The notes below the pieces were generated by a model. The model made no database searches, was not told the origin of the DNA, and worked only from the letters and a program-made list of their open reading frames with translations. Both the position numbers and the translations under genes were made by a program. Below are positions 3,829 to 31,424 of a DNA stretch of 33,854 nucleotides, piece by piece. How positions within the stretch are numbered: the first letter of the stretch is position 1; each line of letters starts with the position of its first letter. Source of the DNA: Methylococcales bacterium (GTDB taxonomy: Bacteria; Pseudomonadota; Gammaproteobacteria; Methylococcales; Methylomonadaceae); NCBI GenBank assembly GCA_023145835.1, contig JAGLDH010000113.1:1-33854 (forward strand). The letters are read 5' to 3'.

Positions 3829-4491
3829 ATGATCTCATTTTCACGAACTATTGCTATAGCAACATTACTTGGATTAAGCAGTTTTGCCAATGCAAGTACA
3901 GTCAATCTACAAGGTAATTTAAATATCGAAGGCTTTAATCCCTTATTCGATGATAATAATGGAAGAACTTATGCGCTCCATCTTTCAGATTTAAATGGTA
4001 GTGTTCTTTTAGACTCTACACCAATAACAAGTATAAACGGATCACTTACTCTTGATGCATTAGGAACATCTTCAATACCTAATATAGTAAACCCTGTTTT
4101 ATCATTAATAAATGTTGGGTTCAGCGCCCTCCCATCCAGTGTTTTTGGAGTACCTTTTAATTTTGGTCCAGGTTTTCCAGGTACGGTTAGTCAAACAGTC
4201 AACAATGTTACAATTCCAGGCGCAGGCGTAACATTTAGCGAAGTACAAGTTGTAGGATCAGGTAATTCTCTTGATATTTTCTTTACAGAAATTACTTCAA
4301 CTGGTTTTGGTCTGCTTATGGCCGCTGATGCGACACTTCCTGAAGTTTCTCTTCGAAACAATGGTAGCATAACATCAGGTTTTGATCTACAGTCATCAAC
4401 AGTATCAGCTGTTCCTGTTCCTGCCGCTGTTTGGTTAATGGGTAGTGGCTTAGCTGGTTTACTTGGTTTTTCTAGAAAAAAAACAGCTTAA
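3829..4491 (+). CDS. PEP-CTERM sorting domain protein (exosortase substrate)
   Basis: Predicted secreted protein processed by exosortase. The signal peptide covers about residues 1-22 (cleavage after ANA). The C-terminal 27 residues are a complete sorting signal: VPVPAA at 195-200, a hydrophobic span containing VWLMGSGLAGLLGF, then the basic SRKK tail. The mature region is rich in Ser, Gly, Asn and Thr, with short beta-strand-like stretches and only hydrophobic or polar repeats, and I recognise no enzymatic domain. The start is supported by AAAGGAAA about 7 bp upstream. The gene is monocistronic: it is followed by a strong hairpin terminator. The likely sorting enzyme is the XrtA-EpsI fusion encoded 17 kb away in this window. 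Confidence 0.9.
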   Translation: MISFSRTIAIATLLGLSSFANASTVNLQGNLNIEGFNPLFDDNNGRTYALHLSDLNGSVLLDSTPITSINGSLTLDALGTSSIPNIVNPVLSLINVGFSALPSSVFGVPFNFGPGFPGTVSQTVNNVTIPGAGVTFSEVQVVGSGNSLDIFFTEITSTGFGLLMAADATLPEVSLRNNGSITSGFDLQSSTVSAVPVPAAVWLMGSGLAGLLGFSRKKTA

Positions 4492-4862
4492 TTAATACTT
4501 TATCTTCAAGATATATATAACATGGACAGGTCGTAGTATGGAATACGATATCAACCACCAGATAATAACACTGGTGGTTTCTTAAGGAACTAAATCTTTC
4601 TAGAATGTTAATTATGATTATAGCCTTCTACAGAGATTTATTATTAATTTCTAATCTAAAAAAATGCTTAACATTTTTTTATGACTCCACATAAAAATAA
4701 CATCCTTCTATCAGTTTTCTTTAAAAAAAGGGTTTCTTTCAAAATTTATACTTTCCCCTAAAAAACTTCTTTTACTATTGTTGATTTAGACACGTCAATA
4801 GTTTGACCTAACAACTCATTTTTTAGTATATTCATCGCTTCAATTTGCATTCTTAACTTTGC
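4492..4862. other. Intergenic region before the radical SAM gene
   Basis: It holds the terminator of the PEP-CTERM gene (4553-4583). A weaker 7-bp hairpin (ACTATTG at 4774-4780 with CAATAGT at 4796-4802) lies about 60 bp before the radical SAM start. No gene and no clear promoter hexamers are seen. Confidence 0.4.
4553..4583 (+). terminator. Terminator of the first PEP-CTERM gene
   Basis: A perfect 9-bp stem (AACCACCAG at 4553-4561 with CTGGTGGTT at 4571-4579) encloses a 9-nt loop and runs into TTTCTT. It lies about 60 bp after the stop codon and isolates the gene from the next one. Confidence 0.8.
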
Positions 4863-6761
4863 ATGAAAATACTCCTAATAACTCCTCCAATGACACAGCT
4901 GAATACTCCATATCCAGCAACAGCCTATTTAACAGGGTTTCTCAAAAAAGAAGGGTATAGAGTTGCCCAAAGAGACTTAGCCATAGAATTATTTCTTACC
5001 TTTTTAACAAAGAATGGCCTAAAAAACATTTATCAAACCATAGAAAACAATTATCTTGATATTGATGATAATGATCTACCTGATTCAATTTATAATTTTC
5101 TACTTCATTACACTTCTTATAAACAGTGTATAGAACCAACAACTAAATTTCTTCAAGGAAAAAACCCATCTCTTGCTTTACGAATTGTATCTCGAACATT
5201 TTTGCCCGAAGGCCCTCAATTTGAAAGTTTATACCAAATGGAGGCGTTATCTAGCAACGTTTTAATTGATGCTTTTGGTAACCTTGGAGTACAAGACAAA
5301 GCTAAATATTTAGCAACTTTATTCATTAATGATATTTCAACTGTTATTAAAGAAGGTGTTGATCCTAATTTTGAAGTCTCTCGCTATGGTGAAAAACTTG
5401 CTGCATCAAACTCATCTTTTGATGATTTATACAATCAACTTTATCAAGCTCCTCTTTATACAGATGAAATAATCGAATCACTAGTCAATCTCTATTTAGT
5501 AGAGGAAAAACCTACCGTTGTTGGCCTAACAGTCCCCTTCCCTGGAAATATGTTGGGAGCACTAAAAATTGCTAAATGCTGTAAAAAAAACAACCCTAAA
5601 ATAAAAGTTATCCTAGGAGGTGGTTTTATTAACACAGAACTAAGATCCTTAAAAGACCCTCGGGTTTTTGAATTTGTAGATTTTATCACTGTTGATGATG
5701 GCGAAAGACCGATTTTAACTTTACTTGAACATATCAATAAACAGCACCCCATTGATAATTTATTCCGTACTTATAGAGCTGTTGAAGATAAGGTTGTTTT
5801 TACAACTAACTCGACTCTACATGATATTCCACATAAAAACACAGGAACTCCAAGCTATGAGGGGCTTCCTTTAGATAAGTATTTATCCTTATGTGAAATG
5901 CTTAACCCCATGCATCGTATCTGGAGTGATGGTCGATGGAACAAACTGACGATCGCACATGGCTGTTATTGGTCTCACTGTAGCTTTTGTGACATTAGCT
6001 TAAACTATATTGGTCAATATGACGATGCAGGTGCAGAAATTATTGTAAACCGAATTGAAACACTGATTTCTGAAACGGGGGAAACAGGCTTCCATTTTGT
6101 CGATGAAGCAGCTCCTCCCAAAGTTTTATTTGCAATGGCAAAAAAATTAATTGATCGACATATTATAATTAGCTGGTGGGGCAATATTCGTTTTGAAAAG
6201 ACTTTTACAGCAGAAAAATGCCAATTACTTGCTGACTCAGGTTGTATTGCAATTAGTGGCGGTTTAGAGGTTGCTTCTGATAGACTATTAAAACTAATGA
6301 AAAAAGGAGTCACTGTTGAACAAGTGGCGCGTGTGACTAAAAACTTTGCTAATGCAAAAATATTAGTCCATGCCTATCTAATGTATGGCTTCCCTAGCCA
6401 AACAGAACAAGAAACGGTGGATTCTTTAGAGCGTGTTCGCCAACTCATGTTAAATAACTGTTTTCAATCTGCTTATTGGCACCGTTTTGCTGCAACTATC
6501 CACAGCCCTATCGGGTTGCATCCCGAACAATATAATATAGAATTAATTCCTAATGGAGATATTCAGTTTGCAGAAAATGATATTGACTATCACGACCCAG
6601 TTGCAACAGATCATGATATGTTAGGTAGAGGCTTAAAAAAAGCCTTATATAATTATATGCACGGAATGGGATATGAGTATCCCATGAAGTTTTGGTTTGA
6701 TAAACCAATTAGTGAACCTAACATTTCACCTTCTTTAATTGAACAAGCACTCTATTCTTAA
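4863..6761 (+). CDS. B12-binding-domain radical SAM protein
   Basis: Predicted radical SAM enzyme with an N-terminal cobalamin-binding-type region. It opens with LLITPPMTQLNTPYPA (residues 4-19), the usual start of this architecture. A Rossmann-like core follows at about 215-300 (PTVVGLTVPFPGN, VILGGGFIN, VDDGERP). The iron-sulfur cluster cysteines are C368, C373 and C376 in HGCYWSHCSFCD, with the CxxC end typical of radical SAM proteins and a CYW-type spacing of four residues in the first interval. SGGLEV (near 462-467) and the following region fit the SAM-binding barrel. The reaction is unknown to me. It overlaps the next gene by one base (TAATG), so the two are translationally coupled and probably act on one substrate. 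No good ribosome binding site precedes the ATG. Confidence 0.88.
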   Translation: MKILLITPPMTQLNTPYPATAYLTGFLKKEGYRVAQRDLAIELFLTFLTKNGLKNIYQTIENNYLDIDDNDLPDSIYNFLLHYTSYKQCIEPTTKFLQGKNPSLALRIVSRTFLPEGPQFESLYQMEALSSNVLIDAFGNLGVQDKAKYLATLFINDISTVIKEGVDPNFEVSRYGEKLAASNSSFDDLYNQLYQAPLYTDEIIESLVNLYLVEEKPTVVGLTVPFPGNMLGALKIAKCCKKNNPKIKVILGGGFINTELRSLKDPRVFEFVDFITVDDGERPILTLLEHINKQHPIDNLFRTYRAVEDKVVFTTNSTLHDIPHKNTGTPSYEGLPLDKYLSLCEMLNPMHRIWSDGRWNKLTIAHGCYWSHCSFCDISLNYIGQYDDAGAEIIVNRIETLISETGETGFHFVDEAAPPKVLFAMAKKLIDRHIIISWWGNIRFEKTFTAEKCQLLADSGCIAISGGLEVASDRLLKLMKKGVTVEQVARVTKNFANAKILVHAYLMYGFPSQTEQETVDSLERVRQLMLNNCFQSAYWHRFAATIHSPIGLHPEQYNIELIPNGDIQFAENDIDYHDPVATDHDMLGRGLKKALYNYMHGMGYEYPMKFWFDKPISEPNISPSLIEQALYS

Positions 6762-21645: not shown

Positions 21646-23184
21646 TTGAATACATTTATAAATAAAAATTATTTCTTTATTTTATTATCCTTTATTCTAG
21701 TATTAAGTTTATATTGGAATGTTTTTTCTGATCTTATTGATATCTGGGATAGTAAGGAAGAATACAGCCATGGTTACATGCTACCTTTTGTTGCTTTATA
21801 TTTTATCTGGCTACAAAAGGATTTGATTTTATCTATTAAGTTTAATCCTTCGTATTTTGGTTTTGCAATGAGTTTTTTTGCATTAACAATCTATTTTATT
21901 GGCATTGTTGGTGATGTCTATTCTTTACTTAGATTTTCATTTATTTTTCTTTTAATTGCTATAGCCCTTTCTATTGGCGGCTTTAAAGTTACACGGTTAT
22001 TATTAGTCCCTTTATTGTTACTCGTTTTTTCCTTTCCTTTACCTCCCGTAGTACAAGCAGGTTTAACATCTAAACTACAACTCATCTCTTCCCAGCTAGG
22101 TGTTTCTTTTATTAGAGCTTGTGAGATTCCTGTTTTTTTAGAAGGCAATGTAATTGATTTAGGTAACTACAAATTACAAGTAGTTGAAGCTTGTAGTGGA
22201 CTTAGATATTTATTCCCGCTGATGAGTTTAGCTTTCATCTGTGCGTATATGTATCAAGTTACTTTTTGGAAGCGCGCTATTTTATTTTTAACATCTATTC
22301 CTGTTACTGTTTTAATGAATAGTTTTAGAATTGGTATAATTGGACTTTTAGTCGACAATTGGGGAATAACGATGGCCGAGGGATTCATTCATGATTTTGA
22401 AGGATGGATCGTTTTTATGGCATGTTTTATCATTTTATTTTTTGTGATGTGGTTACTGTCTTGGACTGAACGAAAAGAAAGAGGCTGGGAAAGTGTGTTT
22501 GGCTTAATTGTACCTGCTCCTGAAGCTCAAGAGGCTACTTTAATAAGTACTACACCTAATTATTCACCCTTAATAAGTGTATTGCTTCTACTCACTATTA
22601 CAATTATCGCAATTAAACCGCTTGGTGAAATTGAAGATATCATACCTGACCGTAAAAGTTTTAATGAGTTTCCATCACAGTTATCCGGTTGGTCAGGCGT
22701 ATCAGTCAATATGGATCAGAACACAATTGATTTCCTAGGCTTATCAGATTATGTTTTAATGAATTTCAACAACCCTAGCAAAACATCTCAAGTTAATTTT
22801 TATATTGCTTATTATCAAACTCAAAAACATGGCGCCGTACCTCATTCACCTAAACTATGTATTCCTGGTGGTGGTTGGTTAATTACAGATATCAGTGAGT
22901 CTAGTTTCAAGGGCATTGAATTTAATCGTGTTATTATTTCAAAAGATAAAATACAACAATTAGTTTATTATTGGTATAGACAAAGAGGAAAGGATATTGC
23001 CAATGAATATGCTTTAAAATGGAACACATTTATCGGTGCATTCCAATATAAAAGAACTGATGGTGCTTTAATCCGACTAACAACAACGTTAAGTGCTAAT
23101 GAAACTGTAGAAAATGCAGATGAGAGGTTACAAAAATTCATTTCATCGATAAATGAAAAGATACCTGAGTATGTTCCTGACTAA
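21646..23184 (+). CDS. xrtA: Exosortase A fused to EpsI domain
   Basis: Membrane transpeptidase-like enzyme that processes PEP-CTERM proteins. Residues 1 to about 275 form the polytopic exosortase domain with its catalytic residues visible: C183 in VVEACSGLRYLFP, R228 in MNSFRIGIIG, and H249 in FIHDFEGW. EYSHGYMLPF at 39-48 is another family motif. Residues about 330-512 are the EpsI domain, with SPKLCIPGGGW at 401-411. Fusion of EpsH- and EpsI-type parts is known in this superfamily. The start is TTG at 21646, preceded by AGGAG ten bases upstream; the first in-frame ATG lies at residue 45, inside a conserved motif, so TTG is right. It is the last gene of the plus-strand arm. Confidence 0.95.
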   Translation: MNTFINKNYFFILLSFILVLSLYWNVFSDLIDIWDSKEEYSHGYMLPFVALYFIWLQKDLILSIKFNPSYFGFAMSFFALTIYFIGIVGDVYSLLRFSFIFLLIAIALSIGGFKVTRLLLVPLLLLVFSFPLPPVVQAGLTSKLQLISSQLGVSFIRACEIPVFLEGNVIDLGNYKLQVVEACSGLRYLFPLMSLAFICAYMYQVTFWKRAILFLTSIPVTVLMNSFRIGIIGLLVDNWGITMAEGFIHDFEGWIVFMACFIILFFVMWLLSWTERKERGWESVFGLIVPAPEAQEATLISTTPNYSPLISVLLLLTITIIAIKPLGEIEDIIPDRKSFNEFPSQLSGWSGVSVNMDQNTIDFLGLSDYVLMNFNNPSKTSQVNFYIAYYQTQKHGAVPHSPKLCIPGGGWLITDISESSFKGIEFNRVIISKDKIQQLVYYWYRQRGKDIANEYALKWNTFIGAFQYKRTDGALIRLTTTLSANETVENADERLQKFISSINEKIPEYVPD

Positions 23185-28923: not shown

Positions 28924-28986
28924 TTTATGTGTTCCATAGTAATTGTAATGTATTAGCTTAGCAAAATTAATAACTACCTTTCAAGC

Positions 28987-29013
28987 AAAAAAAAGGGAGC
29001 CCTAGAGCCCCCC
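28987..29013 (-). terminator. Terminator of the second PEP-CTERM gene
   Basis: On the minus strand a GC-rich hairpin (GGGGGCTC with GGGCTCCC, arms within 28995-29013) is followed at once by eight T. It lies 27 bp after the stop codon and separates the PEP-CTERM gene from the export gene. Confidence 0.85.
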
Positions 29014-29039
29014 TCTCTTATTTAATTAATCGAAATTAA

Positions 29040-29591
29040 TTAAGCTGCTACAGATGAAGATTTACGACGTGAAACTCCAACTAACCCCATTAGAGCAGAA
29101 CCAAATAACCATACTGCCGCAGGAACAGGTACATTACTAACACTATTAACATCATTAATAGTCAATTGATAAGTACCAATCAATCCTAGTGGATTGTTTG
29201 AATTTCCAAAAATATGCAATTGAAAACCTGATAAGTTTTCAATATTAGCTGTGACTGTTTCAGAAAAACCATCTCCACTAATTTCATCATATCCTATCCA
29301 AGGAGATGAATCATTTAATCTGTATTCAACAGTAAACAATTCAAATTCTGGAATACTAGATGCAATGCTAAAAGTTTCAGATGAAGAATCTAATGACACA
29401 GTCCAGAAATCTTCAAAAACGCCATTAATCCCGCTGTGGCTAGTTGAAACAGAATCTGGTGCAGAAACACTTAGATTACTTATAGTACCAGTACCAGAGG
29501 TTGAGTTGTTTTCAATTGATACTATCGCTGCATTCGAAACCATCGGGAATAAAAACAATGTTAGCATCAATGCCAAAATATTTTTTTTCAT
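29040..29591 (-). CDS. PEP-CTERM sorting domain protein under a c-di-GMP riboswitch
   Basis: Secreted exosortase substrate. The signal peptide covers residues 1-21 (cleavage after SNA). The C-terminal 31 residues form the sorting signal: VPVPAA at about 154-159, VWLFGSALMGLVGV, then SRRK and a short tail SSSVAA. The mature domain (about 130 aa) is Ser/Asn/Gly-rich and beta-strand-like, with SETFSIASSIPEFELFTVEYRL, without recognised enzymatic motifs. A ribosome binding site (TTTGGAG) lies about 10 bp before the ATG. The leader folds as a class I cyclic-di-GMP riboswitch. It lies between the WcaJ-type and export genes and has its own terminator. Confidence 0.9.
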   Translation of the reverse strand: MKKNILALMLTLFLFPMVSNAAIVSIENNSTSGTGTISNLSVSAPDSVSTSHSGINGVFEDFWTVSLDSSSETFSIASSIPEFELFTVEYRLNDSSPWIGYDEISGDGFSETVTANIENLSGFQLHIFGNSNNPLGLIGTYQLTINDVNSVSNVPVPAAVWLFGSALMGLVGVSRRKSSSVAA

Positions 29592-29639
29592 AATAATAAA
29601 ACTCCAAAGTTTAACAAACTATTTTATTTAAATAATATA

Positions 29640-29730
29640 ATTTGCAACCCAGCCACCTTTTTAACCAAAAACAAAAAGGTCTGTAGCTTTCCGTCCTTAT
29701 CTCACGACAAGTTTGGCATTTCATCATCCT
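29640..29730 (-). ncRNA. Class I cyclic-di-GMP riboswitch (GEMM-I)
   Basis: On the minus strand, in order: GCCAAAC; a 6-bp stem CTTGTC/GATAAG (29711-29706 and 29701-29696) closed by the GNRA tetraloop GTGA; GGACGGAAAGC, matching the tetraloop-receptor segment GGACGCAAAGC; an 8-bp stem ACCTTTTT/AAAAAGGT (29680-29673 and 29662-29655); and GGCTGGGTTGC at the 3' side. This order and these motifs are those of the GEMM-I aptamer, where the two stems pack through the tetraloop. The outer stem P1 is poorly defined by eye. Downstream a small hairpin (AGTTT/AAACT) abuts the ribosome binding site, with no T-run, so translational control is the likelier output. I cannot tell on from off. Confidence 0.82.
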
Positions 29731-29735
29731 TAATC

Positions 29736-29755
29736 CATAAATATGAATATTTATG
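29736..29755. promoter_or_regulatory. 20-bp palindrome upstream of the riboswitch
   Basis: Arms CATAAATAT and ATATTTATG are perfect 9-bp complements with a 2-bp spacer. It lies within about 10 bp of the 5' edge of the aptamer, where the promoter should be, and could be an operator. Confidence 0.4.
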
Positions 29756-30017
29756 ATTTACAATCCATTCCTACAATTTCCTGAAAGTAGATAAAAAAAT
29801 TTCTTTATCCTAACTAAAATCTTAATACTATTTTCACTGAATTTCAATACTTTGTAAATTGTACTTAAGTACAATTCTACATATATATTACCACCAAATT
29901 CTAAGAATCTGTTGAAAGTTACATTAAAACATAATTTAGCTTAATTGAAGCTTAATGCACAAAAGTATAGATTGCCATTAACTAATTACTACAAATAGTC
30001 TCTAGACCATGCTCTAC

Positions 30018-31424
30018 CTAATAAACATCCTCACTTAAAAAAACATTAAAAACGGTTAAGAATACAATTTTTATATCCATATACAAAGACCAATGCCTTA
30101 TGTACTCTAAGTCATATTTTATCCGTCCTTCCATTTTATCTAACGTGTCAGTTTCTCCTCTATATCCTCTCACTTGAGCTAATCCTGTTATACCTGGCTT
30201 TACTTTATGCCTCAGCATATAGCCTTTTATCTGTTTTCGGTATAATTCATTATGAGCAACAGCATGCGGCCTTGGCCCGACGACAGACATCCGCCCCTGC
30301 AAAACATTGATAAACTGAGGAAGCTCATCTAACGATGTTTTTCTTAAGAATTTACCTAGTTTTGTTACCCGAGGATCATTTTTCTTTGCTTGAGTTACCG
30401 TTCCTCCATCTTCTGTAACAGACATAGAGCGAAATTTCCAAACGCTTATTTCATTGCCGTCCAAACCAAAACGCCTTTGCTTAAACAATATTGGCCCCGA
30501 AGATGTAAGTTTAACTAACAAAGCAATAACAAACATTGGTAAGGCAATGATTAATAAAGCTATTAAACTAAACAAAATATCGAATATCCTTTTAAGCACA
30601 CCATCTACTCCATAAAACGGTGAATCATAAATACTTATAACAGCGATATTACCAACACTACTCCATTGAGCTCTCAACAAATCAAAACCAAAAAAATCAG
30701 GAACATAATAAACTGATACAGTTGTATCAGACAATTCACTTATAATTTCTTTTATTCGATCTTCTGCTTTCAATGGTAAGGTAATATAAACGATATCAAC
30801 CTTACCCTGCTTAGCACTATCGACTAGCTCTCTAACATCACTATATTCCTTCTTAGTTGAATGTTCTCCTCTACCAAATAGCCTATCATCATAAATACCA
30901 GAAAAAGCCATTCCCATCCAGTCTTCCTCTTCAAATAATCGCTGTAATTCAAAACCAAGATTATTAGCACCAATAACGGCTGCTTTCCGACTATTCCGAC
31001 CGTTTCGCCTGATCATACATAAAAAACTATCTACCATAAAATGCCAAGAAAGCAATTCAATTGGTACAAAACAAGCCCATAAGAAAAAGACTTGCTCATA
31101 AACTGGGTCTATTAACAAATAAAATTGATTAATAGAAATTAGTGCAATCAATACAATAAACCAGTTTAATAATATATTTTTTAAACTCTTTATAAATAGC
31201 ACCCCCCTTCTTTCTCTATATAATCCATTAAGTTCAGCAACAAAGAAAAACATCACAATAGAAACAAGTAGCCACCAGCTATGCTTTGAATCCCAATCCA
31301 GATGGTTAATATCAATGACAGCCCACAAGGTGATACCTATAACTGCAACATCTAACAACCTAGCAAATGCTTGTATTTTTGACTCATGTGGCCGTATAAG
31401 ACCAAAATTTGAATCATTATTCAA
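30018..31424 (-). CDS. Undecaprenyl-phosphate sugar phosphotransferase (WcaJ-type)
   Basis: Starts repeat-unit synthesis by moving a sugar-1-phosphate (often glucose) onto undecaprenyl phosphate. Four N-terminal helices (about residues 20-130) are followed by a nucleotide-binding-like region (KAAVIGANNLGFELQRLFEE at about 147-166), a further helix near 285-307, and the bacterial sugar transferase domain to the end. Motifs: KRIFDILFSLIALL, GPILFKQRRFGLDG, VWKFRSM, LRKTSLDELPQF, and MSVVGPRPH. Length (468 aa) is normal. The start is TTG at 31422-31424, with GGGGTG eight bases upstream and no in-frame ATG near. It heads the minus-strand arm; two TAGACCAT repeats precede it. Confidence 0.95.
   Translation of the reverse strand: MNNDSNFGLIRPHESKIQAFARLLDVAVIGITLWAVIDINHLDWDSKHSWWLLVSIVMFFFVAELNGLYRERRGVLFIKSLKNILLNWFIVLIALISINQFYLLIDPVYEQVFFLWACFVPIELLSWHFMVDSFLCMIRRNGRNSRKAAVIGANNLGFELQRLFEEEDWMGMAFSGIYDDRLFGRGEHSTKKEYSDVRELVDSAKQGKVDIVYITLPLKAEDRIKEIISELSDTTVSVYYVPDFFGFDLLRAQWSSVGNIAVISIYDSPFYGVDGVLKRIFDILFSLIALLIIALPMFVIALLVKLTSSGPILFKQRRFGLDGNEISVWKFRSMSVTEDGGTVTQAKKNDPRVTKLGKFLRKTSLDELPQFINVLQGRMSVVGPRPHAVAHNELYRKQIKGYMLRHKVKPGITGLAQVRGYRGETDTLDKMEGRIKYDLEYIRHWSLYMDIKIVFLTVFNVFLSEDVY

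Follow-up and report, generated by a model that had tools for sequence, protein, structure and literature searches.

The riboswitch, its gene and the exosortase system

The window, by which we mean the whole 33,854-base stretch of DNA analysed here (contig C17 of a 3.9-Mb genome), carries on its minus strand a gene for a 183-aa protein (29040-29591) with a signal-peptide-like start and, at its C-terminus, VPVPAAVWLFGSALMGLVGVSRRK, a sorting tag of the VPLPA/PEP-CTERM-like kind; the terminal sequence of the protein reads VPVPAAVWLFGSALMGLVGVSRRKSSSVAA. Upstream of this gene, a cmscan search of Rfam aligned the minus strand from 29727 to 29640 with positions 1-87 of the 87 in RF01051, the model of the c-di-GMP-I (GEMM-I) riboswitch aptamer. 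At 59.5 bits (E 2.2e-9) the score is far above the gathering score of 35, and no other Rfam match in the window reaches the gathering level. It stands 48 nt before the ATG of the 183-aa ORF and about 290 nt downstream of the end of a sugar-transferase gene on the same strand (30018-31424).

In 5' to 3' order the aptamer is made up of CCAAAC, a P2 stem closed by a GNRA loop, which in this case is GUGA, GGACGGAAAGC, a second stem and GGCUGGGUUGC. The preliminary description had recognized here a class I c-di-GMP riboswitch with the GEMM-I elements in order, and had named an RF01051 search as the way to check it. That search gave a significant, full-length match, all of the listed elements were found, and the observation of a c-di-GMP-I riboswitch is confirmed as real and correctly placed. 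The span originally given, 29592-29760, is correct for the leader, while the aptamer proper is narrower (29640-29727).

The riboswitch was also said to lie directly upstream of an exosortase substrate gene, and this too holds, with a tag that is borderline by score: against TIGR03370 (VPLPA-CTERM) the 183-aa protein reached 26.0 bits in a six-frame search (cut-off 25.35), while hmmscan gave it 22.9 bits for this model, which is too low for the cut-off, and 17.7 bits for PF07589, where the cut-off is 20.7. The gene is accompanied by an exopolysaccharide locus and by an exosortase encoded on the plus strand (21646-23184), which has an EpsI-type C-terminal domain and is of the XrtD type, specific for VPLPA-CTERM proteins (TIGR04152, 540.1 bits, cut-off 400). 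The connection to an XrtA system that had been suggested earlier has to be abandoned, since the same enzyme scored only 176.5 bits against the XrtA model TIGR03109, under the cut-off of 208; the models for the usual neighbours of XrtA (TIGR03007, TIGR03015, TIGR03018, TIGR03027 and TIGR02917) were all below their cut-offs in the window. Together, the XrtD enzyme and the VPLPA-like C-terminus resemble the known VPLPA-CTERM/XrtD sorting system, and the XrtD exosortase likely processes the 183-aa protein.

Just 3' of the gene, on the same strand, there is a possible terminator, a hairpin followed by a U8 tail (28978-29030; fold -17.7 kcal/mol, z -1.83), which was matched in stability by 11 of 200 shuffles and was not listed by the terminator pattern scan. 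Regulation may therefore extend to this one gene, with a mostly monocistronic transcript suggested by the hairpin.

The 183-aa protein has no clear full-length orthologue among the matches listed from 151 genomes, and its closest relatives, again among the matches listed, match mainly over the C-terminal tag. RF01051 is present in 5 of its best 11 homologue loci, with six matches in total, and each of these six aptamers has G20, the C21-G46 pair and C92, the bases discussed below. In the genome of the window itself, none of the loci of the seven other VPLPA-CTERM candidates (L019, L020, L021, L022, L024, L025 and L026 of G000) has an RF01051 match. A search of this genome for class II c-di-GMP riboswitches had no match either, but carries no weight, as its control genomes were equally without one. 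The window has one more sorting-tag gene (tag at 4411-4461, in the region 3829-6761); it is followed by a B12-binding-type radical SAM protein, all of whose NCBIfam hits are under their cut-offs.

Ligand-recognition bases and the 21-46 pair

We number the bases after Vc2, as in PMC3764141. According to the available part of that paper, position 20 is the ligand-selecting base and the conserved C92 pairs with a guanine of the ligand, while A47 is described as stacking between both ligand bases in the parts available of PMC3764141 and PMC9049102. All three recognition bases are present in the window, as seen both in the cmscan alignment and in a table of family aptamers: G20 (29717), A47 (29690) and C92 (29644), the last being the expected partner of one ligand guanine. 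G20 is followed by C21 (29716) and C22 (29715), which pair with G46 (29691) and G45 (29692), respectively, and G46 is followed by A47-A49 (29690-29688). Compared with the RF01051 consensus, the window shares the whole model, including G20, A47-A49, C92, the GNRA-capped P2 and the 3' strand of P3. It differs from the consensus in its GUGA loop in place of GAAA, in its P3 and in the pair 21-46. P3, where a tetraloop receptor would be expected, folds as a hairpin without the CUAA motif, and cmscan marked four distal pairs in it as non-standard.

The 21-46 pair deserves a closer look. Here it is C-G rather than the consensus G-C: CAAAC is preceded by a C where the consensus has G, and the partner of this C is the G46 of GGACGGAAAGC. 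The preliminary description, which had considered this segment in isolation, took it as an oddity that might tune ligand affinity. A comparison with the family speaks differently. The 106 family aptamers compared are the 18 listed for the genus plus 88 from the matches listed for the family in order of score, so that strong scorers are over-represented; eight are identical copies, which leaves 98 distinct sequences. The pair is C-G in 79 of the 106, G-C in the other 27 and mismatched in none (77 C-G and 21 G-C of the 98 once identical aptamers are dropped), and it is C-G in 16 of the 18 aptamers listed for the genus. The neighbouring 22-45 pair also varies among the family aptamers, as C-G, U-A or U-G, with three C-A mismatches. 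The idea of G46 as a lone affinity-tuning change was rejected on account of its C21 partner and this mismatch-free covariation. We regard G46 as an ordinary compensated change, given that the C21-G46 pair covaries, is common in the family and is the same in the solved Geobacter riboswitch; the swap probably leaves the affinity unchanged. Judged by its sequence, the riboswitch in the leader of gene 29040-29591 is an ordinary one of class I for c-di-GMP, belonging to a C21-G46 sub-type.

The C-G form is also found well beyond the methanotrophs. A pattern scan for it returned at least 116 stretches from many phyla; by record name, the matches listed include Desulfobacterota-type deltaproteobacteria, Campylobacterota, Nitrospirae, Acidobacteria and Vibrio in addition to methanotrophs. 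One C21-G46 pattern match (L154:561-626) is in a contig that is labelled as a Methanomicrobiales archaeon MAG but may be bacterial and misbinned. Tandem arrays were seen in a Desulfosudis oleivorans MAG (four pattern matches in 331 nt, L160:7172-7502) and in a Desulfobulbaceae MAG (three in 468 nt, L155:5827-6294).

With G20, A47 and C92 kept, c-di-GMP is the expected ligand, and the aptamer would be predicted to bind it; the genome encodes about 30 GGDEF domains (32 match rows, with two domains split in two). The closing pair nevertheless raises the question of another cyclic dinucleotide, 3',3'-cGAMP, or of more than one ligand. In the solved Geobacter 3',3'-cGAMP riboswitch, which was studied with both cGAMP and c-di-GMP, P2 is closed beside the ligand by C15-G40, with A14 before and A41 after it (PMC6274999, in the part available), in the same C-G orientation as in the window, and the position-20 base is treated in the accessible text of PMC9262584 as a factor in selectivity and not as an absolute filter. 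What makes this reading very improbable is the selectivity position itself, where the window has G20 in place of the A14 described for Geobacter, so that c-di-GMP is expected; among the family aptamers A is seldom found at this position (4 of 106). It is also highly improbable, and even less probable than a change of ligand, that the riboswitch is a degenerate, non-functional remnant. Such a reading could appeal to the solitary state of the aptamer, the sole RF01051 match listed at E <= 0.001 in its genome (150 of 202 first-look candidates scored), while relatives have, among the matches listed, up to eight in the genus and up to 18 in the family. A remnant, however, would not be expected to give a full-length match far above the gathering score, with all recognition bases kept and the 21-46 pair compensated, nor to stand at the usual spacing of 48 nt before an intact gene.

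The four relatives whose position 20 is A and not G are L011, L032, L095 and L096; in Geobacter, an A there goes with 3',3'-cGAMP sensing.

Two forms of the aptamer across the family

Riboswitches of this class are widespread in the family, probably one of gammaproteobacterial methanotrophs, with RF01051 present in at least 59 of 101 sampled genomes and in 5 of 9 of the genus. The genes behind the 106 aptamers were approached through the first ORF downstream, chosen by script: it was complete in 62 cases, continued past the end of the stretch in 42 and was absent at two loci. A PEP-CTERM-like tag, recognized by a pattern applied to the 42 C-terminal residues, was found in 44 of the 54 first ORFs that were complete and followed C-G-type aptamers, in none of the 8 that followed the G-C type, and in 7 of 101 control ORFs. 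The controls were taken from the six-frame ORFs of these loci, so that PEP-CTERM genes nearby and spurious frames are among them. The Fisher values of 1.4e-21 (C-G type against control) and 1.3e-5 (C-G against G-C type) are not true probabilities, because the sequences are related. Removal of identical proteins left the counts at 44 of 54 and 0 of 7. Many ORFs were incomplete (25 of the 79 C-G-type and 17 of the 27 G-C-type aptamers, apart from the two loci with no ORF), which makes 44 of 106 a lower bound, leaves the G-C type poorly sampled, with 8 complete ORFs for 27 aptamers, and under-counts long genes, an effect that is strongest for the G-C type. Profile searches detected TIGR03370 in 27 and PF07589 in 18 of 87 first proteins at E <= 0.01; at E <= 0.001, TIGR03370 had 133 matches in total in 20 whole genomes.

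The two orientations of the pair go along with other features of the aptamer. The CUAA motif is present in P3 of 23 of the 27 G-C-type aptamers and of only 5 of the 79 C-G-type ones, the remaining 74 being without it as in the window. P2 is capped by GAAA in 22 of the 27 G-C-type aptamers and by GUGA, GCGA, GUAA or GCAA in 73 of the 79 of the C-G type, with GUGA the commonest (36 of 79). These associations could be read as two sub-types with different jobs: one with C21-G46, GNRA loops of various sequence and, in most cases, no CUAA, placed before exosortase substrates, and one with G21-C46, mostly GAAA and CUAA, placed before other, mostly long proteins, the first forming a lineage-wide regulon that would include the window riboswitch. 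We hold the chances of this reading to be even. What can be said more generally is that a riboswitch before a sorted-protein gene appears to be frequent in the methanotroph family. Beyond the family the association weakens. There, the matches listed gave 86 pattern matches in 80 loci, 72 of them with an ORF, and 10 of these 72 ORFs were PEP-CTERM-like; four of the 10 are in records named Methylomonas, Methylomicrobium or Methylicorpusculum.

The arrangement itself has a precedent. In Methylophaga nitratireducenticrescens GP59, seven c-di-GMP riboswitches were reported, four of which share an 18-kb region, every one next to a VPLPA- or PEP-CTERM gene and in the neighbourhood of exopolysaccharide genes (PMC12530212, PeerJ 2025). 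The same arrangement is seen in the window, in a different genus, and in view of the Methylophaga precedent the window riboswitch is a further case of a known arrangement; the available portion of that account gives transcript levels and no aptamer analysis. For Geobacter, GEMM-I genes and PEP-motif proteins are both mentioned in the accessible part of PMC10599522, where they are not tied together. The addition here is one of scale, namely that a tag is carried by 44 of the 54 complete genes that come first after C-G-type aptamers, and a family-wide bias of the C-G sub-type to exosortase substrates was not met in the open-licence literature searched.

Direction of control and what it would mean

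The 48 nt between the aptamer and the start codon (29592-29639, minus strand) make up the expression platform. A pattern scan found no terminator-like site in it on the minus strand, which makes translational control likely; promoter-like sites occurred at chance level (seven found, 6.8 expected). The platform contains a Shine-Dalgarno-like GGAG (29602-29605), and in the predicted ligand-free fold, which depends on the 5' end chosen, the strand GAUGAUGAAAU-CCAAA, with C21 and C22 in it, pairs with UUUGGAGUUUUAUUAUU and masks the GG of this site. The duplex between the aptamer 5' strand and the platform was predicted at -13.6 kcal/mol, and few shuffles (34 of 2000 and 24 of 2000) were as stable. 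Enforcing the aptamer lowered the predicted pairing of the GG from about 0.84 to 0.07, with the spacer next to the Shine-Dalgarno site and the start codon remaining largely paired. Since the enforced aptamer frees the GG, an ON switch is suggested.

The masking is sensitive to where the transcript is taken to begin. Pairing of the GG with the aptamer core was predicted at 0.22, 0.87 and 0.35 with 0, 10 and 20 nt of upstream sequence, so that masking in the window holds with 10 or 15 nt and not clearly with 0 or 20. In the six homologous leaders this pairing was at most 0.36, and over 79 family leaders the aptamer fold moved the pairing of the Shine-Dalgarno site only from 0.645 to 0.625 (Wilcoxon p 0.21). 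Masking of the Shine-Dalgarno site by the aptamer strand was dropped as a general rule, being dependent on the 5' end and not clear in the homologues. Four relatives of the same genus (L004, L005, L006 and L009) are built differently, with an apparent terminator that would compete with the aptamer, unlike the window leader.

Our best explanation, which as a whole we consider highly probable, is that a C21-G46 c-di-GMP riboswitch would link the level of c-di-GMP to the output of one VPLPA/PEP-CTERM-type surface protein, with control at translation; binding of the ligand would hold C21 and C22 in P2 and so free the otherwise masked GG of the Shine-Dalgarno site, turning the gene ON. The ON step is the weakest part of this explanation. 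The direction is weakly supported by the predicted folds, and we would favour it modestly. That the same riboswitch works with the opposite sign, c-di-GMP being the OFF signal, or that its platform acts through transcription, is a rival that we hold to be rather unlikely. Both ON and OFF switches exist in this class, according to the part available of PMC9262584, and the family leaders have no common direction: among the 79, six were freed and four occluded by a change of more than 0.3. In L004, L005, L006 and L009, moreover, a GC-rich stem and a U-run formed from the aptamer 3' strand, as judged by eye, would make a transcriptional ON switch. In the window leader, however, the minus strand has no terminator-like site ahead of the start codon in the 48-nt platform, and the aptamer fold is predicted to free the GG rather than mask it; both points speak against this rival.

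Taken alone, the feature in the window is ordinary. Its value is that of a clean example of direct wiring, at the RNA level, of c-di-GMP to an exosortase substrate, one that would make an easy reporter. The functions of exosortase substrates are mostly unknown, and for this reason a c-di-GMP riboswitch placed before them hints at roles in biofilms or at the cell surface; a biofilm link of riboswitch and sorted protein is plausible. The family-wide count makes the methanotrophs a good testing ground for such roles. If the reading of two sub-types is true, c-di-GMP would set, gene by gene, which of the sorted surface proteins are made.
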